From positions 1-45,538 of IMG/VR virus record IMGVR_UViG_3300047200_000234: 45,538 nt of DNA; one strand, 5' to 3'. A model generated the notes under the pieces. It saw nothing but the letters and a program-made list of their open reading frames with translations. It was not told the origin of the DNA and ran no database searches. This document shows positions 12,087 through 33,792 of the stretch, one piece after another; position 1 is the first letter of the stretch; the number at the start of each line of letters is the position of its first letter. The translations under genes and the position numbers were made by a program. The stretch is from a virus.

Positions 12087-12088
12087 TA

Positions 12089-13858: not shown

Positions 13859-13859
13859 A

Positions 13860-16838: not shown

Positions 16839-16855
16839 AAAATACTGAGGTTCAT

Positions 16856-17110
16856 ATGCAATTATCACACACATGTCCAAGTAATGTAGTTTTAAATCAT
16901 TGGGAATTACTCAATGTCTTTGTTGATTACGTAAATAATACAGCTAACTGTACATTGGCAGGATATTTAACTAAAGCAGACTACACTGCGGGTGCTACTC
17001 CTGTTATTTTTCATAATGAGATAATACCTGTACCTACAAATGTACAAGCTAATAAATTCATAACAGATCTAAAAACTACTACATTTTTTTCTACTGCTAT
17101 TGATGATTAA
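16856..17110 (+). CDS. Small hypothetical protein after the fibre (84 aa)
   Basis: It starts 18 bases after the fibre gene with RBS TGAGG. It has three Cys but no clear metal motif, and no signal peptide or membrane segment. Position after a fibre gene suggests a fibre accessory or chaperone, but the sequence gives no direct evidence. Confidence 0.55.
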   Translation: MQLSHTCPSNVVLNHWELLNVFVDYVNNTANCTLAGYLTKADYTAGATPVIFHNEIIPVPTNVQANKFITDLKTTTFFSTAIDD

Positions 17111-17128
17111 ATTTTCGTATAATTGGCT

Positions 17129-17155
17129 CCTCTACTAAATAAGTATATTTAGAGG
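17129..17155 (+). promoter_or_regulatory. RBS-masking hairpin with late motif (glycosyltransferase)
   Basis: CCTCTA (17129-17134) pairs with TAGAGG (17150-17155), and an alternative inner stem CTAAATA/TATTTAG (17135-17141, 17146-17152) is also possible. ACTAAATA (17134-17141) is the late-type motif, 29 bases before the ATG at 17163. The AGAGG of the RBS is in the 3' arm in either fold. Confidence 0.6.
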
Positions 17156-17162
17156 AAAATAA

Positions 17163-17897
17163 ATGGCAGATGCACCTTGTATAATTGCTCCTGATTACGG
17201 AAAACACAATCAAATGATGGATGAAGCTCTTAAACGCTTGGATGTTTCAGGAGTGTATAAAGATCTATCTACAATAATTATTATTCCATCTTTAGGGGCT
17301 ATTCCACCGAAAGTAGTTTCATCATGGCTGAATTTGATGAATCCACCTAACCAAAAAGTATTTCGTTTATTTGCAATGGGTATGGAAGTTGGGGAAGCCT
17401 TTTCACAAACTATTCAAAATGTTTTGTCTCATCCAGATTTATCTCAGTATAAATATATTTTAACAATGGAAACAGATAATATTCCACCTCCGGATGGGTT
17501 ATTAAAACTTCTTTCTCGTATGGAAGCTAATCCTCAATTTGCATGTATTGGTGGATTGTATTGGACTAAAGGAGATGGGGGAGTTCCTCAAATATGGGGT
17601 GATGCAAAATCTGGTGAATTAAATTTCAGACCTCAACACCCTATAGCTGATCAATTAGTTGAATGCTGTGGAACTGGGATGGGATTTAATCTGTGGAGAC
17701 TTGATATGTTTAAGGATGAAAGATTAAGAAAACCTTGGTTTAAAACATTAGCTGAAAACGGTGGAATTATGACTCAAGATCTTTATTTTTGGTCTGATGC
17801 AAGAACTAAAGGTTGGCGAGCAGCTGTGGATTGTAATGTACTTGTAGGCCATTTAGATTATAATGGTTCGTTTGGCCCAGAAAATTTTGTATGGTAA
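17163..17897 (+). CDS. Glycosyltransferase, GT-A (family 2-like)
   Basis: The 244-residue protein has a GT-A layout: a first strand STIIIIPSLG, a helix region, then ILTMETDNIPPPDGLLKLL, in which ETDN fills the DxD metal/nucleotide-sugar site, and the acceptor-side CGTGMGFNLWRLDMF and MTQDLYFWSDA. It has no membrane segment. It could glycosylate DNA, a virion protein or a host glycan. The SAM methyltransferase downstream (with an endonuclease relic between) and a late-type promoter favour virion modification, which is inferred. Confidence 0.75.
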   Translation: MADAPCIIAPDYGKHNQMMDEALKRLDVSGVYKDLSTIIIIPSLGAIPPKVVSSWLNLMNPPNQKVFRLFAMGMEVGEAFSQTIQNVLSHPDLSQYKYILTMETDNIPPPDGLLKLLSRMEANPQFACIGGLYWTKGDGGVPQIWGDAKSGELNFRPQHPIADQLVECCGTGMGFNLWRLDMFKDERLRKPWFKTLAENGGIMTQDLYFWSDARTKGWRAAVDCNVLVGHLDYNGSFGPENFVW

Positions 17898-17900
17898 CTT

Positions 17901-18102
17901 ATGTATATTTATAAAACAACAAATCTGATAAATAAAAAAATTTATATCGGTAAATGCGAAAGAATGGGATTCTGGAACAGCAGTTTTTTATGAATTGGGA
18001 ATAAGACATGTCAGTGAATGCTGCAAGGGTCAACATAAACAAATTGGCGGATTTAGATGGGAATACAAAAATGAAGAGGACAGAATAAAATGGAAGAAAT
18101 AA
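17901..18102 (+). pseudogene. GIY-YIG homing endonuclease relic
   Basis: From 17901 the frame reads MYIYKTTNLINKKIYIGKCE, a classic GIY-YIG N-terminus, and stops after 30 residues. In the +1 frame from about 17977 the sequence continues FYELGIRHVSECCKGQHKQI and GGFRWEYK to TAA at 18100-18102, which is the NUMOD/IENR-type DNA-binding tail of such enzymes. The catalytic centre between them is missing, so an internal deletion plus frameshift has left both ends. The end overlaps the methyltransferase start by 13 bases. Confidence 0.75.
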
Positions 18103-18647
18103 AAAAGAAATTATTGAAATTGGATTTAGGATGCGGTCCTAATAAAAGACAAGACGGTGCTTGGGTAGGAGTAGATGCTCTTTCTTTTGAGGGGAAAGTA
18201 GATGTAGTCAGCGATATAATTACATATTTAAAAACTTTAGAAGATGAATCTGTAGAAGAGATTTATATGTCACATGTGTTTGAACATTTTAAAAATCATG
18301 ATCGCCCACCGTTAATGAATGAAATATACAGAGTGCTGATTCCAGATGGAAAAGTAACTATTATTTGCCCATCTTGGAGCCACGAACGAGCCTATGGAGA
18401 TGTTTCTCATGAGTGGCCTCCAATAACTTCTTGGTCATTCTATTATATGAACAAGGAATGGAGAGATGTAAACGCTCCTCACTGTGGGTATATTTGTGAC
18501 TTCAATTTTGGTATTTCTGGGTCTCATGATCCCAATGATCAATACATCTCCTTTCGCAATATGGAGACTAAAATGACTATGATGGCTCACCAAATCAACA
18601 TTGTTACTGACATTATCGCTGTTTTAGACAAAAAAGCTCCAAAGTAA
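18090..18647 (+). CDS. SAM-dependent methyltransferase (class I)
   Basis: Motif I is LDLGCGPNK near residue 12, followed by an acidic residue after strand 2 (VGVDAL) and the motif IV/post region VEEIYMSHVFEHF and LIPDGKVTIICPSW, the pattern of Methyltransf_11-type enzymes. The substrate is unknown; proximity to a glycosyltransferase and fibres suggests a sugar or virion protein. RBS GAAGAGGA lies inside the GIY-YIG relic. A strong terminator follows. Confidence 0.78.
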   Translation: MEEIKKKLLKLDLGCGPNKRQDGAWVGVDALSFEGKVDVVSDIITYLKTLEDESVEEIYMSHVFEHFKNHDRPPLMNEIYRVLIPDGKVTIICPSWSHERAYGDVSHEWPPITSWSFYYMNKEWRDVNAPHCGYICDFNFGISGSHDPNDQYISFRNMETKMTMMAHQINIVTDIIAVLDKKAPK

Positions 18648-18671
18648 CAATTTTAAAATAAATTTAAATTT

Positions 18672-18703
18672 AAAAATAGAGAATGTAAAAGTTCTCTATT
18701 TTT
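18672..18703 (+). terminator. Terminator after methyltransferase
   Basis: A perfect 12-bp stem (AAAAATAGAGAA with TTCTCTATTTTT) with an 8-base loop ends in a T run. Confidence 0.82.
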
Positions 18704-18708
18704 GATTT

Positions 18709-18751
18709 TATCCATAACTAATAACTAAATATGAGGAAATTGTTATGGATA
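18709..18751 (+). promoter_or_regulatory. Start-codon-masking hairpin with late motif (holin-like gene)
   Basis: TATCCATAAC (18709-18718) is the exact reverse complement of GTTATGGATA (18742-18751), which contains the ATG at 18745. ACTAATAA (18717-18724) and a second overlapping ACTAAATA (18724-18731) begin at the loop edge, 28 and 21 bases before the ATG. The loop also holds GAGG, the RBS. Only transcripts starting at the motif would have a free start. Confidence 0.7.
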
Positions 18752-19065
18752 TAGAAGCAGAAGCTATAAAAGAAGCACCCGGATTCATTGCACGAGTCTT
18801 TCATTGGTTAGGTAAGATGTTCTCTAATGGACAAGATGTATCCTCTACTAGATTCATAGTAGTGTTTGGAGTTACCTTTATATTGATTACTGGGACTACA
18901 CTTGCATTTATTGTAGTATTTTTGCTATATAAAGATCCTACTAAAGTAACGAATATAGCTGCTATTCTAGCCGCAATTTCAGGTGGGATGGTAGCTGAAA
19001 TCACTGCTCTTATCGCTGTTCTTGGTTATAATAAGAAGCAAGAGTTGAATGCATCAAAGGAATAA
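18745..19065 (+). CDS. Two-helix membrane protein, holin-like
   Basis: It has a 35-residue soluble N-terminus, hydrophobic helices at about 38-61 and 70-93, and a charged tail (YNKKQELNASKE), with size 106 residues. This fits a class II holin or a related small membrane protein. No lysin gene is adjacent, so lysis function is a guess. The hairpin over the start codon fits a gene whose early expression would be harmful. Confidence 0.5.
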   Translation: MDIEAEAIKEAPGFIARVFHWLGKMFSNGQDVSSTRFIVVFGVTFILITGTTLAFIVVFLLYKDPTKVTNIAAILAAISGGMVAEITALIAVLGYNKKQELNASKE

Positions 19066-19071
19066 ACTTCT

Positions 19072-19254
19072 ATGTCAAAAAATAAGTTTGGTGATTGTGT
19101 GCAACAGAACATAGAACTTAACGAATTTACAGAAAAAGAAATCCTTATACTTGAGAAAATCACACAAGATAGACATATAAGTATTGATGCATTACTACTT
19201 CAGATAGTAAGAGAATATGTTGAAACGTATGAAGAATTGAAGAGGAGTTTATAA
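19072..19254 (+). CDS. Small hypothetical protein (60 aa), possibly RHH-like
   Basis: It starts 6 bases after the membrane protein gene with AAAGGA upstream. The sequence is acidic, with a strand-like start and two helices (EKEILILEKITQDRHIS, then IDALLLQIVREYVETYEEL). This could be a ribbon-helix-helix fold, but the usual basic residues are few. It ends exactly where the GIY-YIG gene begins. Confidence 0.5.
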   Translation: MSKNKFGDCVQQNIELNEFTEKEILILEKITQDRHISIDALLLQIVREYVETYEELKRSL

Positions 19255-20139
19255 ATGAATTTTTATGGTGCGGGGATTATTTATAAGGCCACCAACAAGA
19301 TAAATGGAAAAGTTTATATTGGACAAACTATTAATTCACTAGAAACACGGAAAAAACAACATATAGACAGGGCATTATCCAATTATGATAATAAAAAATC
19401 TAGGTTTGGGTGTGCTATTAGAAAATATACTCCTGAAAACTTCTCGTGGGAAATTATAGATACTTGTGATTTGTTTTTAAATCATGAAGTTTTAGACTGT
19501 AAGGAATGTTACTGGATTGACTTTTACTCCTCTTGTAATTCATCTAAAGGATACAATATGCATCCCGGGGGTGGAATAGCTCTGGGAATAGTTAATAGGG
19601 GAAGGAAGCAATCACCAGAACAAATTGCCTTTAGAGTTTCTTTTCTGAAAGGGAAACCTGCATGGAATAAAGGTAAAAAGGATTATTTGTCAGAACAATC
19701 CAAGACTCTTCAATCACAAAACAGTAAGTCAAGTTGGACACCAGAAAGACACGAAAAGCACAAAAATAGAATGATCGAGAATAACCCAATGGACCATAAA
19801 GAATATAGGGATAAAATTAGTTTCAAAAATACCGGAAGAGAGGTATCCCAAAAAGAACGCAATTCTATCAGTAGTACATTGAAAGAATATTTTAAAACAC
19901 ATGATAGCCCCATGAGAGGAAACACACACAGAGAGGAATCTAAAAAGAAAAACAGTGAAACTAGAATCAGGAATGGGAAATCAAAGGGGAAAAATAACCC
20001 CAGATATAAAGATATTGATTTAGAACTTTTATTTCTACTAAGAGATGAAGGTATGATGATGAAAGATATGGCATCCTATTTTAAGGCTACTCCCCCAATA
20101 ATAAGGAGTAGATTGAGAAATCCGGAGAGGTATCGATAA
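19255..20139 (+). CDS. GIY-YIG homing endonuclease (free-standing)
   Basis: The catalytic domain (residues 7-95) has GIIYKATNKINGKVYIGQT with Tyr10, Tyr21, Arg32, and the metal-binding Glu84 (KECYWIDFY), all expected for activity. The linker holds NUMOD3-like motifs (RGRKQSPEQIAF, KGKPAWNKGKK) and the C-terminus a helix-turn-helix. It starts directly after the previous stop codon and overlaps the next gene by one base, so it has inserted without breaking expression of its neighbours. Target is unknown. Confidence 0.9.
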   Translation: MNFYGAGIIYKATNKINGKVYIGQTINSLETRKKQHIDRALSNYDNKKSRFGCAIRKYTPENFSWEIIDTCDLFLNHEVLDCKECYWIDFYSSCNSSKGYNMHPGGGIALGIVNRGRKQSPEQIAFRVSFLKGKPAWNKGKKDYLSEQSKTLQSQNSKSSWTPERHEKHKNRMIENNPMDHKEYRDKISFKNTGREVSQKERNSISSTLKEYFKTHDSPMRGNTHREESKKKNSETRIRNGKSKGKNNPRYKDIDLELLFLLRDEGMMMKDMASYFKATPPIIRSRLRNPERYR

Positions 20140-20894
20140 TGGGCGATATAGTTTGTGATGAAATATACATGAAGCAAATTCGTCGGATCTTGGGGGCGCC
20201 ATCGATTGACTATTTACTTCTTCAAGATACTGACATAAAAGAAATATGTGTACGTCCAGCTCTTCAAAAGTATTTTATGAAGTTCCCTTTAGAACAACAA
20301 ATTCAGTTAATGTCTGGCTCTTCTTCTGAAGTTGTTATTCCATTCCCTGATGATTATACATATGGTATTACAGATGCACGGGTTACTGATACTGGAATGA
20401 TCATGGGTAATAATGGGAACTTCTGGGATATTGTAATGTTTAATCAAATGTCTGGCGGTGGAATGATTGCCGGGGGTGGTGGAGCATACAATAAAAGAGG
20501 GTATAATCCTAATGGACTTATTCAGCAACGTGAAACTCAAAGAGCTGCTTGGAAGTCTTACCAAAATACATACTCCACTATTCGATATAAAGTTGATGAA
20601 GTTAACCGTAAAGTTTCTGTATATACTACAATGCAGGGATATTTAAATATTACATGGGCTAGATACTCAGACAATTTTAAAGATGTTAAATATACTAGAC
20701 AGCAAGACGTTATTGAATTAAGTCAGGGATATCTATTACTTCACCTAGCCGATGCTTCAGGTATTTTGACAGACTCTGCTCTTGAAATGAGTATCAATAG
20801 TGAATCATTGAAAACAAGAGGAACAGAGTTGATAGAGAAAGTCTTAACTCTATGGCAAGATGTACCTGATGTTATTATGATGCACTCTAGTTAA
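20139..20894 (+). CDS. Putative neck / head-completion protein
   Basis: The 251-residue protein starts with an RRILGAPSIDYLLLQDTDIK pattern followed by a helix and FPL, which recalls the N-terminus of many phage neck proteins. A central beta region, a Gly-rich loop (GGGMIAGGGGAY), and a C-terminal helical part (SINSESLKTRGTELIEKVLT) also fit. T4 gp13/gp14 is the analogy intended; I cannot prove it. Its RBS lies in the GIY-YIG gene. The convergent reverse-strand gene ends 14 bases away. Confidence 0.5.
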   Translation: MGDIVCDEIYMKQIRRILGAPSIDYLLLQDTDIKEICVRPALQKYFMKFPLEQQIQLMSGSSSEVVIPFPDDYTYGITDARVTDTGMIMGNNGNFWDIVMFNQMSGGGMIAGGGGAYNKRGYNPNGLIQQRETQRAAWKSYQNTYSTIRYKVDEVNRKVSVYTTMQGYLNITWARYSDNFKDVKYTRQQDVIELSQGYLLLHLADASGILTDSALEMSINSESLKTRGTELIEKVLTLWQDVPDVIMMHSS

Positions 20895-20908
20895 ATACTC
20901 TATTCCTT

Positions 20909-21268
20909 CTATAACAGGTTGGATAATTTCTCCAATATTTTAATAGCGTATTTAGTTGCTTTCTCATTCTCAAAACTATAATCAGCGTCCCACCATTTAT
21001 AAAACAATGAGCCTTTAGCACAACTTTTTAGTGGACAATTACTACAAGCTTTCAATGGTTTTCCTTCTCCTACACCACCATCAAAGTAATCACATAATCC
21101 GCAGTTTAGATTAAGCCTCATACCTCTATGAAGCAGCTCTGGTGTATATCCCTTCTTAACAATCTGTTTCCATTTACGTATTGAGTAATTAACTGCTTGT
21201 TTATAAGTTAATTTATTGTTATAAATACTTCTTTTATTTATAGCTTTAGCTAAATCCTGTTTTTTCAT
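20909..21268 (-). CDS. Hypothetical Cys-rich protein (119 aa)
   Basis: A CGLC pair is followed by CSNCPLKSC (five or six Cys in about 30 residues), suggesting one zinc site or an iron-sulfur cluster. The flanks are helical and basic (residues 1-45). It ends an early-type operon and overlaps the upstream gene by 4 bases (ATGA). No family is recognised. Confidence 0.6.
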   Translation of the reverse strand: MKKQDLAKAINKRSIYNNKLTYKQAVNYSIRKWKQIVKKGYTPELLHRGMRLNLNCGLCDYFDGGVGEGKPLKACSNCPLKSCAKGSLFYKWWDADYSFENEKATKYAIKILEKLSNLL

Positions 21269-21576
21269 ATCATTTTCATCTCCTTTATTAGATGTTTCCC
21301 ATGTCTTTTAGTAATAACCGGTTTCGATTCAAAAACCCAATAATCTCTCTTATCAAAAACAAACCAAGGCCACATATCCACTTTATTCTTTTTTAGTTCG
21401 CACATTGCTAAAACTTTACATTCTAGCTGTACAACACCAACTATCATGCAATGTCTTAACTCACCCGAAAACTTGACCATGATTTCATCTCCGGGATATA
21501 ATCCTTGTTTACCCATACGAGTGTCAACTGCGTTTATTCTATCTGTTTCAAATTCAACAATTCTTGGTTTATACAT
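21265..21576 (-). CDS. Hypothetical 103-residue protein
   Basis: A compact beta-rich sequence (YPGDEIMVKFSGELRHCMIVGV) suggests an OB- or SH3-like barrel. RBS TAGGAGA precedes the start. It lies in the operon 22274-20909. Function is unknown. Confidence 0.6.
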   Translation of the reverse strand: MYKPRIVEFETDRINAVDTRMGKQGLYPGDEIMVKFSGELRHCMIVGVVQLECKVLAMCELKKNKVDMWPWFVFDKRDYWVFESKPVITKRHGKHLIKEMKMI

Positions 21577-21585
21577 ATACTTCTC

Positions 21586-21816
21586 CTAATATGAATATCT
21601 ACAAATTCGTAAAAAATCCCACAACGTTTTTGATTTAATAGTCATCTCATCCACAGAAGCAAATTTACATCTTACAAAAGTTTTAATTTGTTTATCAGTA
21701 GTAACCTCAGTAGACTGCATATACAATGCGTAATACATTTTTAAATTACTCTCTACGTCTGATGAATAAAGAGACGTAGAGAGTACTAGAAGAAAGGACA
21801 AACATAAAGTTTTCAC
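21586..21816 (-). CDS. Small secreted hypothetical protein (76 aa), GTG start
   Basis: The first 19 residues (MKTLCLSFLLVLSTSLYSS) form a signal peptide or signal anchor. The mature part is about 57 residues with two Cys that could pair in the periplasm. It starts with GTG overlapping the upstream TAG by one base. A periplasmic role in host-envelope takeover or superinfection exclusion is possible but unproven. Confidence 0.6.
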   Translation of the reverse strand: MKTLCLSFLLVLSTSLYSSDVESNLKMYYALYMQSTEVTTDKQIKTFVRCKFASVDEMTIKSKTLWDFLRICRYSY

Positions 21817-22274
21817 TATTTCTTGTGTTCCATCAATTCAGCTTTAGTCATCTTAGCAACAGAGGCTACTGACTCTGCAAGTTTGACAGATGAAATATGT
21901 TGTGCTATTACTTTGTTGATTTCTTCCTTGTTCGGCATTGTATCAATTTTGCCCTTTACAATATTAACAATCTTTTTGAAATCAGCAGGAGCAAGTTTGT
22001 CAGCAATTGCCTCTACATCATACTCGGTTTTTTCGTTCAACTCTTTCATGAAGACTTTAACCCCAAGTTCTTCAAATTCAGTTTTGTCAATTTTACGTTC
22101 TGTCAAAACTTCCTTTAGGAGTTTTTCGTATCCTTCCATTTCTTTTTGAAATTTGTAAATCATTGCATAAGTTTTAGCAAGGACTTCATTAGAAAGATCT
22201 TTAGTTCCTTCCTTATCAATTAGACGCATTGATTTTAGAAGTTCTTCTGACTGGTTGTTTGTAATTTCACACAT
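21816..22274 (-). CDS. Hypothetical charged helical protein (152 aa)
   Basis: This is the first gene of an early-type operon with a strong promoter and RBS TAAGGAG. It is Lys/Glu-rich and helical throughout, with possible coiled coil at residues 40-60 and no motif I recognise. Abundant expression is likely given the promoter match to consensus. Confidence 0.65.
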   Translation of the reverse strand: MCEITNNQSEELLKSMRLIDKEGTKDLSNEVLAKTYAMIYKFQKEMEGYEKLLKEVLTERKIDKTEFEELGVKVFMKELNEKTEYDVEAIADKLAPADFKKIVNIVKGKIDTMPNKEEINKVIAQHISSVKLAESVASVAKMTKAELMEHKK

Positions 22275-22306
22275 ATTATTTCTCCTTAGTTGTTTAATAA
22301 GACCAT

Positions 22307-22335
22307 AGTATAACCTATAATAAAAAAGTAAACAA
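22307..22335 (-). promoter_or_regulatory. Early-type promoter, best consensus copy
   Basis: Reading the reverse strand, TTGTTT (22330-22335) is 17 bases from TATACT (22307-22312). The leader GGTCTTATTAAACAACTAAG follows, and the same region occurs with few changes at 6949-7013. Confidence 0.82.
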
Positions 22336-22399
22336 CTTTTTACAATATTTTTAAATAATTATTTATACATAATTCAGTAAAAAGTATAGTTTAATTAAA

Positions 22400-22606
22400 C
22401 TATTCTATAATGCCCATAATTGATACAATTTCATTAAAGGATTGCAAAGCTAGTGATGAATTTTTATGGGGAAATGAATGTACATAGTGCTCGCCTAAAG
22501 CAAGATATAAATCTTCGAATTGTGGTTTACTTATTGAAGTTATCTGGTTAAGATTTAAATATAATCCTTCTTCATAATGCTTCATATGATATAAACATTT
22601 TTCCAT
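22400..22606 (-). CDS. Small hypothetical protein (68 aa)
   Basis: It follows the TnpB-like fragment by 11 bases with RBS AAGGAG. The sequence is acidic at the C-terminus and contains several His. It ends the operon that begins at 26500. No family is recognised. Confidence 0.5.
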   Translation of the reverse strand: MEKCLYHMKHYEEGLYLNLNQITSISKPQFEDLYLALGEHYVHSFPHKNSSLALQSFNEIVSIMGIIE

Positions 22607-22617
22607 TATAATACTCC

Positions 22618-22872
22618 TTATTCTAATTCGTTTCCAGAACTATCCCATGCATATGAACAATCTCTACAGTCATAATTTTTTAAATCGTTAAAATTTAAAA
22701 TATCATTATAGATCCATTTTGCTTCAAGAAAAATTCTATGCAAAAATTCAAACTGATCCCTATTAAATTTATTTTCAGATAGCTTCAACTCATAAACTTT
22801 ACAGGATTGTGTTTTTCTTTTTTCTCTTGTGTTAGCAAGAGAATCTTTTATCTTCTGATTTTTAATTGACAT
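22618..22872 (-). CDS. TnpB/OrfB-like N-terminal fragment (84 aa)
   Basis: Residues about 20-60 (CKVYELKLSENKFNRDQFEF, then LHRIFLEAKWIYNDIL) resemble the N-terminus of IS605-type TnpB and Cas12-like nucleases, where a strand KVYxLKL is followed by the helix ending W-x-Y-N. The RuvC nuclease and zinc ribbon are absent, since the gene stops at 84 residues and is followed directly by another gene. It is a relic or a repurposed domain. It overlaps the deacetylase end by 11 bases. The assignment rests on a short pattern. Confidence 0.45.
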   Translation of the reverse strand: MSIKNQKIKDSLANTREKRKTQSCKVYELKLSENKFNRDQFEFLHRIFLEAKWIYNDILNFNDLKNYDCRDCSYAWDSSGNELE

Positions 22873-23845
22873 AATTCTTTACTTTATCAATATTAAAAAA
22901 TTGACTGGATTTACTATTTTTATATAGCCCTCTCAAATACTTCCCATCTATTGGAATTCTATTCCCATACATTGAACCACTCTGAACCTTCCAATCCGAC
23001 TCATAATTAACTCCAAAGTAGTAATCAAAACCATATTGCTCAAAGTATTTAAATAGCTGATGTCCTTCTCTCAATGATTCCCCAAATGGAAATATATGAA
23101 TATTAGTTTTACCAACTACTGGTTCAACTTCTTTTTGCCACATTTGTAAATCATGAATAATTGAACCATCGCTTTGTCTAGGTTCAGCTAAGTGAGCATA
23201 ACCGTGTGATGCAAATACCCATCCATCCCGCTTTAACCAATCAGCCACTTTCTTTGCAATTGCATATTCATTTTTCTGATATCCAAGTATGCCTTTGTAT
23301 CCCGTTACTGCGATTATTCCTTTAGCTCCATTATAAGAAAAATCAGGATGCTGTTTAATAAATGTATTAAGATAAGTAACTACTTCCACATTCTCCATAT
23401 ATTGATTTGCAATATAAGAATAAAGTTTATTATCATACACTACCAATTTTTCTGTAGTACCATATTCTACCATTCTTGAATAATAATTCAAATCATCAAC
23501 TGAGATGATTAAAGGTTTTTTATTTTTAGGAAATAGAAAATCTTTAGGTTTAAAATCCTTATCATATGCATCTGATAAATTTATAAGTACATAACCTCTT
23601 TCGTATAATGAATCGACAATATCAATAAATTGTCTATGAGTTACAAACCAATCAGAAATATACGCATTAGGTTTCTTCTTTTCAAATACAATCAATGGAT
23701 GAAAGAATATGTGTTCTACTTGTATTCCATTAAAGTATCTCAGCCTACTTCTATTCTCATCATTGATCGATTTAATTACTATGAAAGAAATAAAACAAAG
23801 AATCAACATTAAAACAGCATTGGCAATCTTAAAATATTTTAGCAT
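22862..23845 (-). CDS. Membrane-anchored polysaccharide deacetylase-like protein
   Basis: A transmembrane anchor lies at residues 7-27. The rest resembles the NodB fold: strand and acids LIISVDD (D117, D118), the zinc motif H214-G-Y-A-H218 in FASHGYAH, and later IHIFPFGE and FDYYFGV. These enzymes remove acetyl groups from peptidoglycan or surface glycans outside the membrane. In a phage this could alter host wall or receptor glycans. It is early-type and in the same operon as the RNA ligase and kinase. RBS AAGGAAG precedes the start. Confidence 0.72.
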   Translation of the reverse strand: MLKYFKIANAVLMLILCFISFIVIKSINDENRSRLRYFNGIQVEHIFFHPLIVFEKKKPNAYISDWFVTHRQFIDIVDSLYERGYVLINLSDAYDKDFKPKDFLFPKNKKPLIISVDDLNYYSRMVEYGTTEKLVVYDNKLYSYIANQYMENVEVVTYLNTFIKQHPDFSYNGAKGIIAVTGYKGILGYQKNEYAIAKKVADWLKRDGWVFASHGYAHLAEPRQSDGSIIHDLQMWQKEVEPVVGKTNIHIFPFGESLREGHQLFKYFEQYGFDYYFGVNYESDWKVQSGSMYGNRIPIDGKYLRGLYKNSKSSQFFNIDKVKNYVN

Positions 23846-23854
23846 TAGTCTTCC

Positions 23855-24793
23855 TTAAAAATCATTTTTAGCATAAGGATCTTGATTACAATTAAAAACA
23901 AATAATCCTTTCTTCGTCCACATATCTATAACTGATGGCCTGTCATCAAAAACAGCAAGAACGTTATATTTACCTTTAATATGTTCTTCGTAAATCTCAG
24001 ATTTTACAATCGTATCTTTTCGATTATCCTCTGCTTTACGCATAAATAAGTTTTTACAAGGAATACCACTATCAGATATCCAATCGTAAGTTAAACCATA
24101 GCATGAGTCTTTTCTGCCAGATACAATAAAAATATATGGGCATACTTTACTTCCATTTGAACGATTATTATTGCTTACTGATTGTAAAATAATTTTTACT
24201 TGTTCAATTACAAGGTCGTTATACGCAGATGTTTCGTCAAATATTCTTCTTTGAGATGAATTGCTCAAAGTCCCGTCGATATCGCAGAGAACACACCACG
24301 GCAATTTGTTGTCAATTTCTACTTTAGGTTTAGCTCTTTCAATCATCTGTTTAAGTTCTATTTCATACTTTTGCCATGTCGATTTGATGACATTCTTACC
24401 TACAGGTCTTTCTCTCTTTGCATCACGAATTACCGCCTCTCCCAAAGTTATAGGAAATTCTTTTATCTCATACAAAAAATCAATGGGAATTTGTTCACAA
24501 TATTGTTTAATATCACGTATTTTAGTATCAAGAGACTTTTTATTTAAATGCATATTATCTAAAACAAGATTGTAACCTTCATCTATAAGTCTGTATGTAG
24601 CATCGTCTTCTAGCTTAGTGACAAGTTTTTCATTTCTATCATCAAAAGTATAATCAGATAGCATAAAACGAAAACTATCGCGATTGATTCTTTTATAATC
24701 TTGGTGATTTTTTACAAATTCACAAGCCCATGTACTTTTTCCACTTGCTTGGATACCTTTTGTGAATATTACATGTAATGATTCTTTTCTCAT
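23855..24793 (-). CDS. pseT: Polynucleotide 5'-kinase / 3'-phosphatase
   Basis: This T4 Pnkp-like enzyme (312 vs 301 residues) phosphorylates 5'-OH and removes 3' or cyclic phosphate ends of cleaved RNA. The kinase has P-loop G13-IQASGKST21 and the D39/R42 pair in NRDSFR. The HAD phosphatase has CDIDGTL at about 170, then IVSGRKDS and VFDDRPSVIDMW. All key residues look intact. It overlaps the upstream RNA ligase by ATGA and so is translationally coupled to it. In T4, Pnkp and RNA ligase undo host anticodon-nuclease cleavage. Confidence 0.93.
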   Translation of the reverse strand: MRKESLHVIFTKGIQASGKSTWACEFVKNHQDYKRINRDSFRFMLSDYTFDDRNEKLVTKLEDDATYRLIDEGYNLVLDNMHLNKKSLDTKIRDIKQYCEQIPIDFLYEIKEFPITLGEAVIRDAKRERPVGKNVIKSTWQKYEIELKQMIERAKPKVEIDNKLPWCVLCDIDGTLSNSSQRRIFDETSAYNDLVIEQVKIILQSVSNNNRSNGSKVCPYIFIVSGRKDSCYGLTYDWISDSGIPCKNLFMRKAEDNRKDTIVKSEIYEEHIKGKYNVLAVFDDRPSVIDMWTKKGLFVFNCNQDPYAKNDF

Positions 24794-26145
24794 ACTGTTT
24801 CCTCTACTGATTGCTCATCTTCAATATCGACTTCTTCTGCATCTTTCTGTTTTGTTTCATGTTGTCGGAATAAAAACGATTTATGTTTCCAACAATCTAT
24901 CCCTAAAGTTTCTTTACGCAAAACTATTCCTTCGTCTGGGGTGTTTGTTCCATCTCCACAATCAGGACACATTTTTTCAAGGTATGTGTTAGTTAGAGCT
25001 TCTAAAAATTTGTTTCTCCATTCATCTTTATCTCGATCATCATTTGTTTCTGCTAAACTCTTTAAATCAAAAAATAGATCTTTTGCTGTTCCATAATATA
25101 ATAAAGGTACTGCATTCAATCCATTAGCTTTACAAAATTGACTTACTTGAAGCATAGGCCATTCGACTACATTTCCATCTGGATTTGTAGTGGTGATTCT
25201 GTACACAAAGTTTTTATGTTCTCCTGGTTTGCATCCATAGTCATAATATTTCTGAATCATCTTGTCTTCTGAAATATATCCAGCTATTTCGAAATAAATT
25301 GTCATATCTTTTTTAATAAAAGGTTTCAATTCTTCTGAAGCTACCTCCCAGATATCTGTTCCGTAATAGCCACCAGTAACTTCTTTATTGATGTATTTAT
25401 TCTTGATAACTTTTCTTGAACTTCTAATGTAGTCATATTCAATCTCATTTATTTTAACTCCTATTTTCTTAAGAAGTTTTTCAATAAAAGATAATTCTCT
25501 TCTTACGGAGATATAAGCAAGAATAGCAGATGTTCCATGAATCTTTCTTGAAATTGTGCAGATATCTTCAGGATTTATCCGATGTATATTTCTACCTAGC
25601 TGTTCAGTATCTATGTGAAATTTAAAAATTTCAGGAATGATGCGGTCAAACTTTTTATTAGCTTTTGTTTCGGATCTTTTATTTGTACCAGAATTCTTAC
25701 AAGGAACAATATACTTTTCACAAACTTTATTTCCATTGATATGATCGAAGACAGTTCCAATTTCTACACTTTCAATATTTCTATCACAAACATCAACAAT
25801 ATAATTAAGACTATTTAAAGGAATGAAAAATCCCTCACTACGAAATCCACGTAATTTCACACATCTTACTCTTCCTTTGTGTGAAAAGAATCCTTTCTTT
25901 GTTTTATCTCGATTCATTTCAGGTTTATCAAAAAGATTGTTACATGCAAGAAACTCTTCTGATATTTTACATTCAATCGGGAAAAATACTCCGACATCTC
26001 CAACTTTACAATCTTTTGAAATGATTACAGAGTTACCCATCACGATAGTGTGCTTAATATTGTCACAACCTTCTAGATCAATTATGTTTTTAATTTCTAC
26101 AATAGACGCTGCGTAATTAACATTTCCTTTAAGTTCAAATTCCAT
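24790..26145 (-). CDS. RNA ligase, Rnl5 (DraRnl)-like
   Basis: An N-terminal OB-like domain (VGVFFPIECKISEEFL and GRVRCVKLRGFRSEGFF) precedes the nucleotidyltransferase motif I K201-I-H-G-T-S, with later acids EIAGY (motif IIIa-like) and KxK-like LRKETLG (motif V). This order fits the Deinococcus Rnl5 class, which seals 3'-OH/5'-phosphate RNA ends, often in nicked duplex. I chose the ATG at 26145 because AGAGGA is 11 bases upstream; an ATG 12 bases earlier has no room for an RBS. It overlaps the PNK gene downstream. Confidence 0.85.
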   Translation of the reverse strand: MEFELKGNVNYAASIVEIKNIIDLEGCDNIKHTIVMGNSVIISKDCKVGDVGVFFPIECKISEEFLACNNLFDKPEMNRDKTKKGFFSHKGRVRCVKLRGFRSEGFFIPLNSLNYIVDVCDRNIESVEIGTVFDHINGNKVCEKYIVPCKNSGTNKRSETKANKKFDRIIPEIFKFHIDTEQLGRNIHRINPEDICTISRKIHGTSAILAYISVRRELSFIEKLLKKIGVKINEIEYDYIRSSRKVIKNKYINKEVTGGYYGTDIWEVASEELKPFIKKDMTIYFEIAGYISEDKMIQKYYDYGCKPGEHKNFVYRITTTNPDGNVVEWPMLQVSQFCKANGLNAVPLLYYGTAKDLFFDLKSLAETNDDRDKDEWRNKFLEALTNTYLEKMCPDCGDGTNTPDEGIVLRKETLGIDCWKHKSFLFRQHETKQKDAEEVDIEDEQSVEETV

Positions 26146-26146
26146 A

Positions 26147-26500
26147 TTAGTTTCCATCCTCTAAAATGATTACTTGTAATTTATTATCTTTCATAACGAC
26201 TTTTGCAAAACCCTTGCTTCCTATTCTACAATGTCTATAATGATTGGTATTGTAACACAGATAGAAGAAAAAATTATCAATAGTATTTTTTGAATATTGC
26301 ACACTTTCTGGTTTTTTTAAATAACCTCTTATCGTGAAAGGACAATCTTTTACATACTCATATATTTCTTCTGCAATCTTTTTTAGTTCTTCTTCAAGAT
26401 CTTTCCATTTATGTAAACTAATACAAAGTCTGATTTCTTCTTTAGCAAAAGTAAATTTCACTAAGTTCTTTTGAGAATAACTTATTTTTATAGGTATCAT
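26147..26500 (-). CDS. Hypothetical protein in RNA-repair operon (117 aa)
   Basis: It is the first gene after an early promoter (RBS AAGGAG) and is followed after one base by the RNA ligase ATG. Mixed alpha/beta: a strand NLVKFTFAKEEIRLCISL, a helix DLEEELKKIAEEIYEYV, then strands. No family is recognised. Its tight coupling to the ligase makes it a candidate accessory factor of the repair set. Confidence 0.65.
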   Translation of the reverse strand: MIPIKISYSQKNLVKFTFAKEEIRLCISLHKWKDLEEELKKIAEEIYEYVKDCPFTIRGYLKKPESVQYSKNTIDNFFFYLCYNTNHYRHCRIGSKGFAKVVMKDNKLQVIILEDGN

Positions 26501-26524
26501 ACTTTTCTCCTTATAATTACATAA

Positions 26525-26553
26525 TTAAATAATCATTCTAATAAAGTAAACAA
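26525..26553 (-). promoter_or_regulatory. Early-type promoter for the ligase-kinase operon
   Basis: On the reverse strand TTGTTT (26548-26553, followed by AC) lies 17 bases from ATTTAA (26525-26530). Upstream AAAAG and downstream TAAGGAG match the family. It lies just after the nucleotidyltransferase gene and so starts a second operon. Confidence 0.7.
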
Positions 26554-26563
26554 CTTTTATGTA

Positions 26564-27448
26564 TTATCTAAACCCATAGTATTTTAATTTTTGAGCAATT
26601 TCTTCAATGCATTTAACAGCTTTATCTTCTTGAACAATACAGTTCTCTAATGACCCAAACCACATTTCCAAACAATTAAGAAGTAGAGTTTTAATCTTAT
26701 CTTCATCGGGACTATAGGGTAATACTGTACAATTATTATATAATTTTTCAAGTTCTCTTTCTTTATCTGAGAACCATTTTTCAACTTCTTCAAGTGAGAT
26801 AATGCCTGAACGAATTGCTCTTAGATGCTCTTTATGTTTCTCTAAATCAATAGTTCCTTCGATTAAAGCTTGTTCACATTCTAAAACTAGTCTGACTGTA
26901 TGATATAAAAATTTAACATCAACACCATACTTTTCAATAGTTTCCTTTCTTTTACCGATAGGAACTTTTGTTCTTGCATTTTTAATTTGGCTGAAAGCAT
27001 ACCCCTTAAACTTGTGGAACATTCCTCTGTGTAAAAACAAGTGTCTATTACTTCTTACGAGTTCACCAATATCAGAATTATGTATAACACATCTATGAGG
27101 AGTGAACAGTGAATCAATCATATTAGGATTGTTTTCCATACACAACTGAAAGTATTTTGTAATATTGTATACTTGAGCATCATATTCTTTACCATTGAAT
27201 TCTATGTGATGTTGTTGCCATACTTCAAATCTCTGTTTTTGTTTACCAAATCCTTCAATATGACCTTTTAGATGAGGAAATACAGTCTCTTTATCAGGAA
27301 TACAAAAAGCATAAATATCTACGTCAGATGATCCTGTAGTAACACCATAAGCTTCACTACCCATAATAGTTTCATAGTGCGTGTTCACTACAAAAGACGG
27401 TGGTGTGATCTTTTTATGTTTATATAGATCTTGAATTATAGAACTCAT
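26564..27448 (-). CDS. RlaP-like nucleotidyltransferase (pol-beta fold)
   Basis: The pol-beta signature is G30-S31-EAYGVTTGSSD42-V-D44, where D42/D44 bind metal, and a third Asp in EYDAQVYNI completes the triad. The helical C-terminal part (FKGYAFSQIKNARTK and on) fits the RlaP/YcgL-type family (COG3541), which occurs beside RNA ligases and is proposed to add nucleotides to damaged RNA. Start ATG 27448 is chosen over the GTG at 27454, because GAGG is 5 bases upstream of the ATG. It overlaps the Thg1-like stop (ATGA). Confidence 0.82.
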   Translation of the reverse strand: MSSIIQDLYKHKKITPPSFVVNTHYETIMGSEAYGVTTGSSDVDIYAFCIPDKETVFPHLKGHIEGFGKQKQRFEVWQQHHIEFNGKEYDAQVYNITKYFQLCMENNPNMIDSLFTPHRCVIHNSDIGELVRSNRHLFLHRGMFHKFKGYAFSQIKNARTKVPIGKRKETIEKYGVDVKFLYHTVRLVLECEQALIEGTIDLEKHKEHLRAIRSGIISLEEVEKWFSDKERELEKLYNNCTVLPYSPDEDKIKTLLLNCLEMWFGSLENCIVQEDKAVKCIEEIAQKLKYYGFR

Positions 27449-28233
27449 ATACACCTCAAATAACGTTCAATAAAATCTCTCTGATCCTGAAAGCGGGGAA
27501 TCTCTTTATCAATAACCCAAGATTCGGAAATGCTTCTCATTCCTTTAGTTAGAGGATCAGTTTCAATTATTTCTTTTCTCACACATCTTCCACGTTTGAA
27601 CTGAGTTCCTAGCTCATCCCAACGAGCACCCTTCTCTTCTTCACATTTTCGAATAATTTCTTTGCACGACTTCTTATGTAATTCTTTCTGCGAGAAATGA
27701 GATAGACCAAACATCTGTACAGAATTACGTTCCCAATCTTGTTGACGCCAAATAAAGTTATTACACACTTCGTCTTCAGGAATTGTGAAAGCTCTACAGT
27801 CAAATTGAACTGGTTTGACAAAGTTGTAGTATCCTCTATGACTTAATTTATGAAACAAATCTGGCAATAAATACGTTAAGTATGAACTTGCCAATGCTGA
27901 TGAAATTGAAACCATCTTGATCAATTCGTTACCAAACCACGGCTCACTATTTAATTCATCGTAATACTTAATAAGAATTGTAATTTCATCTGATTGCACA
28001 TAAGCTATTTTAGCACCCTGAATATTTTTACAAAGATATTGTGCTGTTTCATCCATTAACTGCATAAAATAAATATCATAAGGTTTAACAAAATCTTTCG
28101 TTACTGTATGAAATGCTCTACCATCAAGTCTCATTATAATTGGTGTACGTTTAGTTAATATATATTGACTCGACTTTTCATATTCTTTCATGCGATCACC
28201 TAGTGACTTCTTATCTCTTACTGCATTTTTCAT
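27445..28233 (-). CDS. tRNA-His guanylyltransferase-like protein (Thg1/TLP)
   Basis: Motifs of the Thg1 3'-5' polymerase family are present: R35-L-D37-G-R-AFH with metal Asp37, the second acid in YVQSDEITIL, and a basic region (WRQQDWERNSVQMFG). Such proteins add nucleotides in the 3'-5' direction to a tRNA 5' end, either G-1 of tRNA-His or to restore a damaged 5' end. The gene overlaps both neighbours (ATGA), and context points to tRNA repair. Whether it adds G-1 or repairs generally cannot be read from sequence. Confidence 0.9.
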   Translation of the reverse strand: MKNAVRDKKSLGDRMKEYEKSSQYILTKRTPIIMRLDGRAFHTVTKDFVKPYDIYFMQLMDETAQYLCKNIQGAKIAYVQSDEITILIKYYDELNSEPWFGNELIKMVSISSALASSYLTYLLPDLFHKLSHRGYYNFVKPVQFDCRAFTIPEDEVCNNFIWRQQDWERNSVQMFGLSHFSQKELHKKSCKEIIRKCEEEKGARWDELGTQFKRGRCVRKEIIETDPLTKGMRSISESWVIDKEIPRFQDQRDFIERYLRCI

Positions 28234-28388
28234 TCCTTATCCCCACATGTGCAATTACTACAACCACATCCAGAATTATTTTTAATTATCTCTTCATGTA
28301 CTTTTTTAAGTCTAGGTTCGGGTACAAAACCATCTACAAACTCATCACTTAATTCAACATTAGATAATATCTCACGTAATCTTTCCAT
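28230..28388 (-). CDS. Small Cys-rich hypothetical protein (52 aa)
   Basis: This reverse-strand ORF runs from ATG 28388 to TGA 28230-28232, with RBS AAGGATA. The C-terminus CGCSNCTCG packs four Cys into nine residues and could bind zinc or another metal. It overlaps the upstream gene by 17 bases and the Thg1-like gene by 4, the operon style of this block, so it is probably translated. Confidence 0.6.
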   Translation of the reverse strand: MERLREILSNVELSDEFVDGFVPEPRLKKVHEEIIKNNSGCGCSNCTCGDKE

Positions 28389-28650
28389 AATATATCCTTG
28401 TAACGATCTCTATTTCATCAAACCCCAGTCTCTTAATATTCTTAAGAGAGCATTTAAGTGCATCAATGTATGCCCTTTTATATATGAGATTACCTTCAGT
28501 AATACTTGGAACATCATCTTTAATAAAAGAATTTTTCATCTCTGTATATTCTTTTATATGCCGATCAATGTCCTGCTTAAACAACTTCTTAATAGTTTCT
28601 TTATTAAGATATTTTTTACTTATCTCTGTATCAACTAATACTTTTTTCAT
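28372..28650 (-). CDS. Hypothetical 92-residue protein
   Basis: A basic, helical protein (YLNKETIKKLFKQDIDRHI) with no motif I recognise. It overlaps its upstream neighbour by 4 bases and the downstream Cys-rich gene by 17. It belongs to the operon that includes the Thg1-like and RlaP-like genes. Confidence 0.6.
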   Translation of the reverse strand: MKKVLVDTEISKKYLNKETIKKLFKQDIDRHIKEYTEMKNSFIKDDVPSITEGNLIYKRAYIDALKCSLKNIKRLGFDEIEIVTRIYYGKIT

Positions 28651-29153
28651 TTATAATCCTTTGCTCTGATAATTATATTTAATGTCTCATTTGTATCGAC
28701 ACCACCATACCTATTATAATAATTATAATAATAGTATGAACTGAAAAACTTCTTACTATCTTTCCTTTTATCTATAAGTTTTTGTAAGTCCTCACACCAG
28801 ACCCGTTCAATAGCTCTTTCCCAATTAGACTTTAGCCAAGGAATAGTAATTACTAATATTATTCCGATTATAAAGTTACCAAATATACATAGTCCACTTA
28901 CAAGACCTCTGAGACTATCACTTTCTCTTTGTAGAATCCAAGGCATTGATTGATTAAAAAATACTTTTATTATCAACTTAGTTTCTAGCCAACAAAACTG
29001 TGCGTAAATACCACTAGCAATGACTGTTACTGTGCAAAACACTATTGTCCAAAACAATACTACTAGCAATTTGTATCCATTTTCTTTTGAGAAGACACTA
29101 ATTATTTCTTTGAATTTCTGCTGAAAGAAATATTTCCATACTCGTATACTCAT
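28647..29153 (-). CDS. Hypothetical membrane protein (168 aa)
   Basis: Two hydrophobic helices are seen at about 28-50 (LLVVLFWTIVFCTVTVIASG) and 85-108 (GLCIFGNFIIGIILVITIPW). Between them is a loop with a hydrophobic patch, and the C-terminus is charged and Tyr-rich. I chose ATG 29153 because AAGGAG lies 9 bases upstream; the ORF could extend to 29192 without an RBS. Function is unknown; an early role in host envelope modification is possible. Confidence 0.65.
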   Translation of the reverse strand: MSIRVWKYFFQQKFKEIISVFSKENGYKLLVVLFWTIVFCTVTVIASGIYAQFCWLETKLIIKVFFNQSMPWILQRESDSLRGLVSGLCIFGNFIIGIILVITIPWLKSNWERAIERVWCEDLQKLIDKRKDSKKFFSSYYYYNYYNRYGGVDTNETLNIIIRAKDYK

Positions 29154-29154
29154 A

Positions 29155-29283
29155 TTATAACTCCTTCTTCCATTCTTTTTTCTTACGATCATATTTCTTC
29201 TTATTAGGAACTACTTGTTCTTTCGGTGCAAAACTTTTTCTTATAGACCTTGAGAGTTCTCTTATACTAAATGTTAGTTTCAT
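29155..29283 (-). CDS. Small basic protein (42 aa)
   Basis: ATG at 29283 with AAGG upstream, TAA at 29155-29157, one base before the next ATG. The product is very basic (about 15 Lys/Arg in 42 residues, ending DRKKKEWKKEL) and may bind nucleic acid. It is too short to identify, but its tight fit in the operon and its carrying of the downstream gene's RBS support it. Confidence 0.55.
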   Translation of the reverse strand: MKLTFSIRELSRSIRKSFAPKEQVVPNKKKYDRKKKEWKKEL

Positions 29284-29323
29284 AATTACAATACCTTATC
29301 AAGAATAATAGAAAGTCCGGCAC

Positions 29324-29842
29324 TTATATGATTGATTCAATACAATCAGCTACGAAATAGTTACTATTTTCTTTAAAATAAACTTGACCACCTGAATACC
29401 CACAAGTTTCACTTGCTGATTTTAACTCTTTAATGGTGCCTTTATATCCAAAGCTTGCAGGAGTACCTTCGTGTACTCCAATAAAATGGTAATTAAAATC
29501 TTTTTTAAGATTAACTTTCATTCCTACTTTTAAGTCTTCAAATTTAATCATTGAGTCACTCCAATCAATGTCTTTGTATTCATATATAGCACACTTTTCA
29601 TATCTCTTTTGTAGTTTTTCACCTAAAGAATTATTCATTACTCTTTGATAAAATTCCATACTCCAATTGCCACGGTCATCATCTTGGACACCAACATAAT
29701 TAGAATCATAAGAAAAAATCCAATTGTTCTTATCAAACTTTGCTACTACAATCTCTAACCATTTACTAACTTCACCACCGCCTCTAGGAATATTGATAAT
29801 AATAGAATTTATCTTAATATCTTTGTAATGAATCTTACCCAT
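29324..29842 (-). CDS. Hypothetical 172-residue protein
   Basis: It is the first gene after an early-type promoter, with RBS TAAGGAG. The C-terminal half looks like an SH3- or KOW-like small barrel (DLKVGMKVNLKKDFNYHF and FGYKGTIKEL). The N-terminal half is beta-rich. No family is recognised. It leads the operon that ends with the RlaP-like gene. Confidence 0.62.
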   Translation of the reverse strand: MGKIHYKDIKINSIIINIPRGGGEVSKWLEIVVAKFDKNNWIFSYDSNYVGVQDDDRGNWSMEFYQRVMNNSLGEKLQKRYEKCAIYEYKDIDWSDSMIKFEDLKVGMKVNLKKDFNYHFIGVHEGTPASFGYKGTIKELKSASETCGYSGGQVYFKENSNYFVADCIESII

Positions 29843-29869: not shown

Positions 29870-29899
29870 TTAACAATAAATAGAATAAAAAGTAAACAA
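29870..29899 (-). promoter_or_regulatory. Early-type promoter for the Thg1/RlaP operon
   Basis: On the reverse strand AAAAGTTGTTTAC (TTGTTT at 29894-29899) is followed after 17-18 bases by TTGTTA/TGTTAA. The leader TCTTAAACAACTAAGGAG matches that of the gene at 22274. The -10 is poorer than elsewhere. Confidence 0.62.
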
Positions 29900-30035
29900 C
29901 TTTTTTCTTAAAATATGGAAAATTATAGAGATTTGTTAAAAAGTATATTAAAAGTATACATTTATGCAAATTCCTATATATTTGATTATTTTAATTAGAT
30001 CACACCATACTTTCCTAATTTTATCAATTATTGTA

Positions 30036-32320: not shown

Positions 32321-32965
32321 ATGTCAATGTTTTCGGATAAAGTAATAAATAAAACATATGAAGCGTCTCATACGTATGGTCATATCAATCAAGGAGTAAA
32401 GGAACTTCTACAACTTTTAGATCCTCAAAGCATGAACATTTTCGAGATATTGCTAATTCCTGATTCTTTGCCTGAGAAAACAAAAGTTGCTGTAAGTAAC
32501 GGAATGGGGATGCTAGAATACGCGGCTCGTTCAGTACTTGACACTGTTGTAACTAAATTACATGTCCAAACAATGGATATAGGATTTAATGCTCTTGAAT
32601 ATGCTAGATATGATTATCATCAAGGAATCACCGATATTACATATGCTGATGAAGTTACAATTACTTTTATAGAAAATGAATTAGGCATTGTACGTAACTT
32701 TCTAAATAATTGGCTCAAACTTACAATGAAGAAGGATTTCATAAATGGTGGATATCGTTTTAATGATAATCAATGGACTGGTAGAAAGAAAGCTATTATA
32801 ATTCCTCAAATGTCTGTTGGACTTCCATCTACTGCTTGGATAGAGTTAAAAGGATTACGATTTAAATCTATGGATAACTGGGCTTTTGACCAAGCATCTC
32901 CAGATCCTTTAAAAATAAGTGTAACCTTTGCAATAGATGAGTGCTGGCTTCTTAGTCCTTTATGA
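32321..32965 (+). CDS. Tail tube-like paralog (possible tube terminator or initiator)
   Basis: The C-terminal half (GLRFKSMDNWAFDQASPDPL, then KISVTFAIDECW) mirrors that of the tube protein (SSPDPLRATITF), so it is probably a tube-fold protein at an end of the tube, like T4 gp54 or a tail terminator. The N-terminal 100 residues are helical. It has its own late motif and hairpin. The endonuclease gene overlaps its stop (ATGA). Which end of the tube it occupies is not known. Confidence 0.65.
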   Translation: MSMFSDKVINKTYEASHTYGHINQGVKELLQLLDPQSMNIFEILLIPDSLPEKTKVAVSNGMGMLEYAARSVLDTVVTKLHVQTMDIGFNALEYARYDYHQGITDITYADEVTITFIENELGIVRNFLNNWLKLTMKKDFINGGYRFNDNQWTGRKKAIIIPQMSVGLPSTAWIELKGLRFKSMDNWAFDQASPDPLKISVTFAIDECWLLSPL

Positions 32966-33792
32966 AAATTAAACACGGAACAAAATTAACAAATGAGCAA
33001 TTCTTGGAGGTTTTAAAAGAGAAAGCACCCCTTATTGAGCCTTTAGAACCGTATATTAATAGTGAAACTAGAATAAGAGTTAAATGTCATGGGTGTAGCT
33101 CTGAATATTCTAAAATTGCAGGATCTTTGTGGAGACACGGGTGCTTAGGGTGCACTCTCAAAAATAAGAGGAAGCAACCGCGTCAATTAACTCATGAGCA
33201 ATTTTTGGATAAACCTGAAATGAAAGATTCGGATTTTATTTTGATCTCAACGTACAAAAGCTCATTGGTAAAACTAGATATTAAATGTTCTAAGTGCGGT
33301 TTAATAAAAACATCTTTACCTTCAAATATTCTTAGAAATCCTTACTGCCCCAAATGTAGTAAAAGTTCACATTTATCCCACCATGAGCGCAAGATCATAG
33401 ATATCCTAACTGATTTAGGTCTGCATTTCACAATACAAAAAACTTTTAAAGATCTCAAAAGTCCTAAGGGTTGGGCATTAAAATTTGATTTCTATATCCC
33501 TTCTTTTAATTGGTGTATTGAATATGACGGAGAACAACATTTTGATAAAAACTCCCATTATTATAAAACAGAGAGAGAATTTGAGCACAGACAAAAATTG
33601 GATAAATTAAAAGATGATTATTGTATTTCACACAAAATACATCTTACAAGATTATCCTATATACATGCAAAATTTCTGAGGGATTTTATTCATACAGAAA
33701 GTATACTTATTCAATCCAAAGTTTATGAGGATAGAAAAATATTTCTATCTAATTATCATATAAACTTTTTTAAAATAGCCTCTTCCTACTAA
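32962..33792 (+). CDS. Zinc-finger Vsr-like homing endonuclease
   Basis: Four CxxC knuckles (C42/C45, C61/C64, C109/C112, C129/C132) form two zinc sites for DNA binding. The catalytic domain follows with E142, D176 in KFDFYIP and E187-Y-D189-G-E-Q-H193, the signature shared with the gene at 5764. This is a free-standing homing endonuclease, inserted between the tube paralog and the tail chaperone gene. It overlaps the previous stop by ATGA and so is translated by coupling. Target is unknown. Confidence 0.8.
   Translation: MKIKHGTKLTNEQFLEVLKEKAPLIEPLEPYINSETRIRVKCHGCSSEYSKIAGSLWRHGCLGCTLKNKRKQPRQLTHEQFLDKPEMKDSDFILISTYKSSLVKLDIKCSKCGLIKTSLPSNILRNPYCPKCSKSSHLSHHERKIIDILTDLGLHFTIQKTFKDLKSPKGWALKFDFYIPSFNWCIEYDGEQHFDKNSHYYKTEREFEHRQKLDKLKDDYCISHKIHLTRLSYIHAKFLRDFIHTESILIQSKVYEDRKIFLSNYHINFFKIASSY

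Follow-up and report, generated by a model that had tools for sequence, protein, structure and literature searches.

The stretch of DNA analysed here (the window: the whole of IMG/VR virus record IMGVR_UViG_3300047200_000234, 45,538 bases, 33% G+C) belongs to a contractile-tailed phage whose plus strand encodes the tail sheath, tail tube, tape measure and baseplate and which also has a terminase, and it harbors on the minus strand, between positions 28233 and 23855, a compact island of four enzymes predicted to act on RNA ends. The original prediction had placed these enzymes here, and Pfam and PHROGs searches recognize all of them; from the start of the Thg1-like gene to the end of the Pnkp gene they take up 4,379 bases, in the middle of a minus-strand block of 17 open reading frames (ORFs).

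27445 to 28233, minus strand: Thg1-like protein (TLP), a 3'-5' nucleotide polymerase of 262 amino acids (aa) (PF04446, 3.6e-30; phrog_4717, 8.5e-80)
26564 to 27448 (ATG start), minus strand: RlaP-family pol-beta nucleotidyltransferase (NTase) of 294 aa (PF10127, 9.6e-17; phrog_388, 2e-45)
24790 to 26157, minus strand: ATP-dependent RNA ligase with an N-terminal OB fold, Rnl5-like, 455 aa (PF21189 OB, 8e-8; PF09414, 4e-5; phrog_968, 1e-59)
23855 to 24793, minus strand: Pnkp, a 5'-OH polynucleotide kinase with a HAD 3'-phosphatase, 312 aa (AAA_33 and HAD_PNKP, 2.9e-35; phrog_505, 5.5e-74)

As far as motifs can tell, the catalytic motifs of all four enzymes appear intact. The nearest solved structure of the Thg1-like protein is BtTLP (4kgk, E value of 1.1e-50 over a nearly full-length alignment); D37-G38 and Q80-S81-D82-E83, which provide the metal-binding D and the QSDE motif, are invariant across 24 phage homologues, and K50 aligns with the activation lysine K43 of BtTLP. 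Full-length homology, a metal-binding D and an SDE motif are the marks of a bacterial TLP, and by its sequence the polymerase resembles the repair-type members of that group (BtTLP). The RlaP-family protein shows 50–51% identity to Caulobacter phage homologues and no solved relative by sequence search; its invariant G32-S33 and D44-x-D46 (alignment A3) form the GS...DxD signature of the RlaP in the repair set of PMC7824862. Its start lies more likely at the ATG at 27448 than at the GTG at 27454 proposed before (26564-27454), as the ATG and the stop codon of Thg1 then overlap in ATGA. In Pnkp, the P-loop S17-G18-K19, D39/R42 and the HAD motif D171-x-D173-x-T175 are invariant, the nearest structures are Pnkp1 (4xrp, 6.5e-30) and T4 Pnkp (1ltq, 1.6e-21), and the layout is that of T4 Pnkp, with the kinase and HAD domains of the end-healing member of the PMC7824862 set.

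The ligase has an invariant K205-x-H207-G208 and E409-G410, the lysine and EG motifs of the RNA ligase in that same set (PMC7824862). The single sequence gave nothing but chance-level matches in the PDB, and profile and fold searches were required. A profile of eight phage ligases matches the OB domain of NgrRnl, the RNA ligase of Naegleria gruberi, at 5e-8. Among solved folds (Foldseek), the AlphaFold model of the ligase (12 sequences, mean predicted local distance difference test score, pLDDT, of 74) is closest to NgrRnl (2e-14), followed by T4 Rnl2 (1e-6) and T4 Rnl1 (5e-4), and the match with NgrRnl is full-length, with a template modelling (TM) score of 0.54 by target. NgrRnl and the Deinococcus enzyme (DraRnl) together are what we take to be the Rnl5 family, whose architecture, an N-terminal OB fold joined to an NTase domain, is present in the phage ligase; PDB titles describe NgrRnl as a nick-sealing RNA ligase. 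On the other hand, the protein scores 26 bits against the Deinococcus equivalog TIGR02306, where the cut-off is 151, and its 455 aa exceed the approximately 340 expected of the family, making it about 115 residues longer than NgrRnl. Because of this score far under the cut-off and the extra length, it is called Rnl5-like and is not filed as an Rnl5 member. The Rnl5-like label of the original prediction is thus borne out by both fold and OB profile; the ligase does not belong with the Rnl1 of the T4 system, since family searches returned no Rnl1 family match and the fold favors NgrRnl. The ligase alignment proved too diverse to query viral sequences.

The arrangement of the genes is equally compact. 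Thg1 overlaps the preceding gene (ATGA), RlaP overlaps Thg1 (ATGA, if the start is the ATG at 27448), and a 117-aa gene, the ligase and Pnkp form a mutually overlapping run. The single real gap among the repair genes, of 63 nucleotides (nt), lies ahead of the 117-aa gene and contains the element AAAAGTTGTTTACTTT, which is also found at the head of the minus-strand block and ahead of its next unit:

29889 to 29904, minus strand: leader element, copy of AAAAGTTGTTTACTTT, at the head of the minus-strand block
26543 to 26558, minus strand: leader element AAAAGTTGTTTACTTT within the 63-nt gap that precedes the 117-aa/ligase/Pnkp unit
22325 to 22340, minus strand: leader element, copy of AAAAGTTGTTTACTTT, upstream of a 152-aa gene, the next unit of the block
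6956-6970 (plus strand), 22325-22339, 26543-26557 and 29889-29903 (minus strand): copies of the 15-mer AAAGTTGTTTACTTT, the plus-strand copy preceding ORF 7022-7261

The exact 15-mer AAAGTTGTTTACTTT within this element occurs four times in the window against 0.06 copies expected (one mismatch allowed), and all four copies are followed by an ATG that has a strong ribosome-binding site. A sigma-70 scan stayed at background level. We infer that the leader element is probably a phage promoter or operator. Of the two adjacent early operons claimed originally, the two units gain support from the leader copies at the block head and in the 63-nt gap. Looser variants of AAAGTTGTTTACTTT precede the ORFs at 6631 (plus strand) and 6402 (minus strand).

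The island can be read, with a probability of roughly 0.7, as a phage RNA end-repair module that would counter ribonucleases of the host whose targets are tRNA, probably the host's own tRNAs cleaved by anti-phage defences, or other structured RNA. In such a module, Pnkp would remove the 2',3'-cyclic or 3' phosphate and phosphorylate the 5'-OH, RlaP would put back lost nucleotides on the 3' side, the Thg1-like protein would restore lost 5' nucleotides where a paired strand serves as template and, as the last step, the Rnl5-like ligase would join the 3'-OH to the 5'-phosphate. Healing, extension and sealing remain the best reading of the earlier proposal that the set trims, extends both ends and reseals; trimming drops out, as no member trims beyond the removal of terminal phosphates by Pnkp. 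A precedent, also invoked in that proposal, is phage T4, whose Pnkp and Rnl1 undo the cleavage of tRNA by PrrC, the former through end healing and the latter through sealing (PMC2610378). Both systems have the same Pnkp domain layout, an ATP-dependent RNA ligase and a proposed heal-then-seal logic, whereas the island has an Rnl5-like ligase and two extra nucleotidyltransferases. Compared with the T4 pair, these two polymerases would permit the mending of breaks that lose nucleotides, such as trimmed cut stems or the excision of the wobble nucleotide by RloC, which could defeat repair by T4 Pnkp/Rnl1 (PMC2610378). For PARIS AriB, the expected cleavage products have a 5'-phosphate and a 3'-OH, of which the 3'-OH is confirmed (PMC12409363), so that a ligase alone might suffice there.

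A counter-defence role against RNA-cleaving immunity, as put forward originally, fits the biology of T4 (PMC2610378) and the predictions made for large phages (PMC7824862), but the anticodon loop may not be the likeliest place of action of the TLP. Those TLPs of bacteria and archaea that have been characterised favor 5'-truncated tRNAs, to which they add bases by Watson-Crick pairing (PMC6471195), and the loop, having no template strand, would not be their most natural substrate. Given that a TLP requires a paired template and that nicks are what the nearest solved ligase seals, stem breaks may be at least as likely a target; by analogy with these relatives, the pairing-dependent polymerase and the nick-sealing ligase together hint that broken stems would be mended besides anticodon-loop cuts. 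A bolder version, which we consider doubtful, would be a gap-repair machine for duplex parts of tRNA or rRNA, in which the Watson-Crick-dependent 3'-5' polymerase and the 3'-end nucleotidyltransferase refill the bases lost to either side of a break, the nick-sealing Rnl5-type ligase closes it and the 117-aa protein acts as a substrate adaptor; if true, it would reverse damage beyond the reach of T4-type repair.

The end-repair module is supported by four complementary enzymes, overlapping genes, shared leaders, linkage of Pnkp to both Thg1 and the ligase, and repeated assembly of such clusters. Relatives found by tblastn among 50,697 phage records number 123 for Thg1, 361 for the ligase, 436 for RlaP and 2,737 for Pnkp. 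At record scale, distances compared with uniform placement (Fisher P) were shorter than expected between Thg1 and Pnkp (P 0.0014) and between the ligase and Pnkp (P 0.009). Partial clusters recur across the loci sampled (80 loci each for viral Thg1, viral RlaP and bacterial Thg1, taken with flanks of up to 10 kb), the partners being nearly always on the same strand; bacterial Thg1 and kinase genes are adjacent (17/19 within 3 kb, P 5e-7), and within 9 kb of viral Thg1 there is a weak proximity of RlaP (P 0.03). Of 172 distinct Thg1 loci, just two, in the window and in one other viral contig, have all three partners on the same strand within 6 kb. Viral contig L095 carries a second compact four-part set, of 5.3 kb (ligase, Thg1, pol-beta nucleotidyltransferase and a kinase-HD phosphohydrolase fusion) whose nucleotidyltransferase has no Pfam match, shows GS...DID and belongs to a different NTase subfamily from that of the window, and in L277, a Lachnospiraceae genome, Thg1 accompanies a ligase and a Pnk-HD. 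In a tree built from the 172 distinct Thg1 proteins, the 10 that have at least two partners within 6 kb require at least nine changes, an approximate count from a quick tree with many weak branches, which argues that such clusters were assembled repeatedly. The simplest reading of these sequences is that the same set of activities was probably put together more than once: the differing NTase subfamily of L095 and its Pnk-HD point to recurring activities and not to a single inherited cassette. Inheritance of the four genes as one cassette was rejected, as gene order, subfamilies and partners vary among clusters. As a separate observation, an HD domain is fused after the kinase, in place of the HAD phosphatase of Pnkp, in L095:8309-9211, L108:9108-9992 and L277:13488-14405.

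Several results weigh against a dedicated module. Although several large phages possess all four families (family search of 37 records chosen for having at least one of the four genes), most phages with these genes have them scattered; record-scale distances show no linkage of RlaP to the other three (P 0.29-0.74); Pnkp and the ligase are no nearer to viral Thg1, within 9 kb of it, than under uniform placement; and an RNA search of all 45,538 bases of the window revealed no tRNA gene or other RNA family. The genes might instead have come together by chance in an accessory region of modular make-up, Pnkp and the ligase healing nicks in RNA or DNA and the other two enzymes having roles of their own. 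Distances of tens of kb between the families in most large phages, the missing record-scale linkage of RlaP and the unrelated genes of the block (such as a polysaccharide-deacetylase-like protein, a weak match) would agree with this, but the overlapping reading frames and shared leaders, the significant Thg1-Pnkp and ligase-Pnkp linkage and the repeated independent assembly of three- to four-part clusters make it unlikely, and the clustering is beyond chance.

The lack of a tRNA gene in the window also speaks against housekeeping RNA processing, in which the set would serve not counter-defence but the maturation of phage or host tRNAs, including G-1 of tRNA-His, the process from which Thg1 takes its name. 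The complete genome may encode tRNAs beyond this 45.5-kb fragment; still, bacterial TLPs favor 5'-truncated tRNA over G-1 addition (PMC6471195), and tRNA maturation needs neither a 3'-phosphatase nor a ligase, so that such a role appears improbable. It is more improbable still that the island serves DNA end repair, with Pnkp and a ligase of nucleotidyltransferase fold mending DNA nicks during phage replication. T4 Pnkp-type enzymes do accept DNA ends, but the closest fold to that of the island ligase is a dedicated RNA ligase that seals nicks, and both the RlaP and the Thg1 families are tied to RNA (PMC7824862, PMC2904730).

The broad interpretation of an RNA-repair module is sensible but largely anticipated in print. 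A survey of jumbo phages predicted that RlaP restores lost nucleotides before ligation and Thg1 the 5' nucleotides (PMC7824862); its RlaP/Rnl/Pnkp/Thg1 sets share component families and proposed role with the island, but their parts are mostly reported as co-occurring, with Thg1 sporadic, whereas here all four lie within 4.4 kb, in a phage without DNA-level kinship to any of the 50,697 records (no megablast match of the island region). Bacterial neighborhoods of Thg1, polynucleotide kinase and RNA ligase were noted in 2010 (in the relevant passages of PMC2904730); there, Thg1 lies beside a kinase and sometimes a ligase, as in the island, but the kinases are mostly short and kinase-only, and those passages make no mention of RlaP. 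Pnkp1 (4xrp), the nearest solved relative of the island Pnkp, belongs to a Hen1-type system from which the island differs in its ligase and in having two polymerases instead of Hen1; family scans recognized no Hen1 methyltransferase among the block proteins scanned. Among phages, Gordonia phage Trax has Pnkp, a ligase of the same family and RlaP within 6.3 kb, and Omegavirus Kalah2 has Thg1 and Pnkp within 2.3 kb with the ligase 12 kb further; in each, one of the four was not found.

Two small ORFs accompany the enzymes within the accessory block:

20909 to 29842, minus strand: accessory block of 17 ORFs, mostly overlapping or closely spaced, flanked by plus-strand structural genes
28230 to 28388, minus strand: 52-aa protein with a Cys-rich C-terminus (CGCSNCTC), AAGGA upstream, and a 4-nt overlap (ATGA) between its stop and the start of Thg1
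26147 to 26500, minus strand: 117-aa ORFan between RlaP and the ligase, with a strong Shine-Dalgarno sequence (AAGGAGA) and an 11-nt overlap with the ligase start; first gene past the internal leader element

The 117-aa protein has no family match and no relative by tblastn in the 50,697 phage records or in IMG/VR, and its structure model (pLDDT 44) was unusable and discarded; the 52-aa protein has no credible family match (a weak phrog_7293, E 0.028). Both ORFs suggested earlier as parts of the set therefore exist and have ribosome-binding sites, while what ties them to repair is their position. PADLOC matched none of the 10 block proteins scanned to a defence model. Immediately downstream of Pnkp, in the same run, the protein at 22862-23845 gives the weak polysaccharide deacetylase match and has an N-terminal membrane segment predicted by eye. 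The block is bracketed by ORF 19255-20139, GIY-YIG homing endonuclease-like by sequence impression alone, and by an HNH endonuclease (ORF 32962-33792; phrog_559). The only near-identical contig, of 21 kb (L279/L280, IMGVR_UViG_3300047504_000038), shows ~99.9% identity to window 5826-22556 and ends at 22556, short of the repair genes. The terminase large subunit (7503-10565, 1020 aa) seems to be interrupted at its Walker A motif (TRIGK / C...HN / THMV) by an intein that bears a LAGLIDADG-like motif (LAGLIDSDG), which would account for matches of residues 103-470 to helicase-annotated phage proteins. A 992-aa protein rich in internal repeats (13860-16838), with no family and no phage relative, is likely a tail fibre or surface protein, and a pattern scan of IMG/VR gave no relative of the tail sheath.

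RNA-cleaving defences (PrrC, RloC, PARIS, retrons, Cas13) make up a large share of bacterial immunity, and it is believed that some of their lesions, wobble-base excision among them, overcome the T4 repair pair. A set this complete and compact is uncommon, and together with the leader elements, the assignment of the ligase as Rnl5-like and of the polymerase as a TLP, and the evidence for repeated assembly, it is what this island adds to the open-access literature. The four-gene set brings in enzymes that would restore both 5' and 3' nucleotides and is small enough to be cloned whole, so that the long-standing prediction that phages refill and reseal damaged RNA becomes directly testable.

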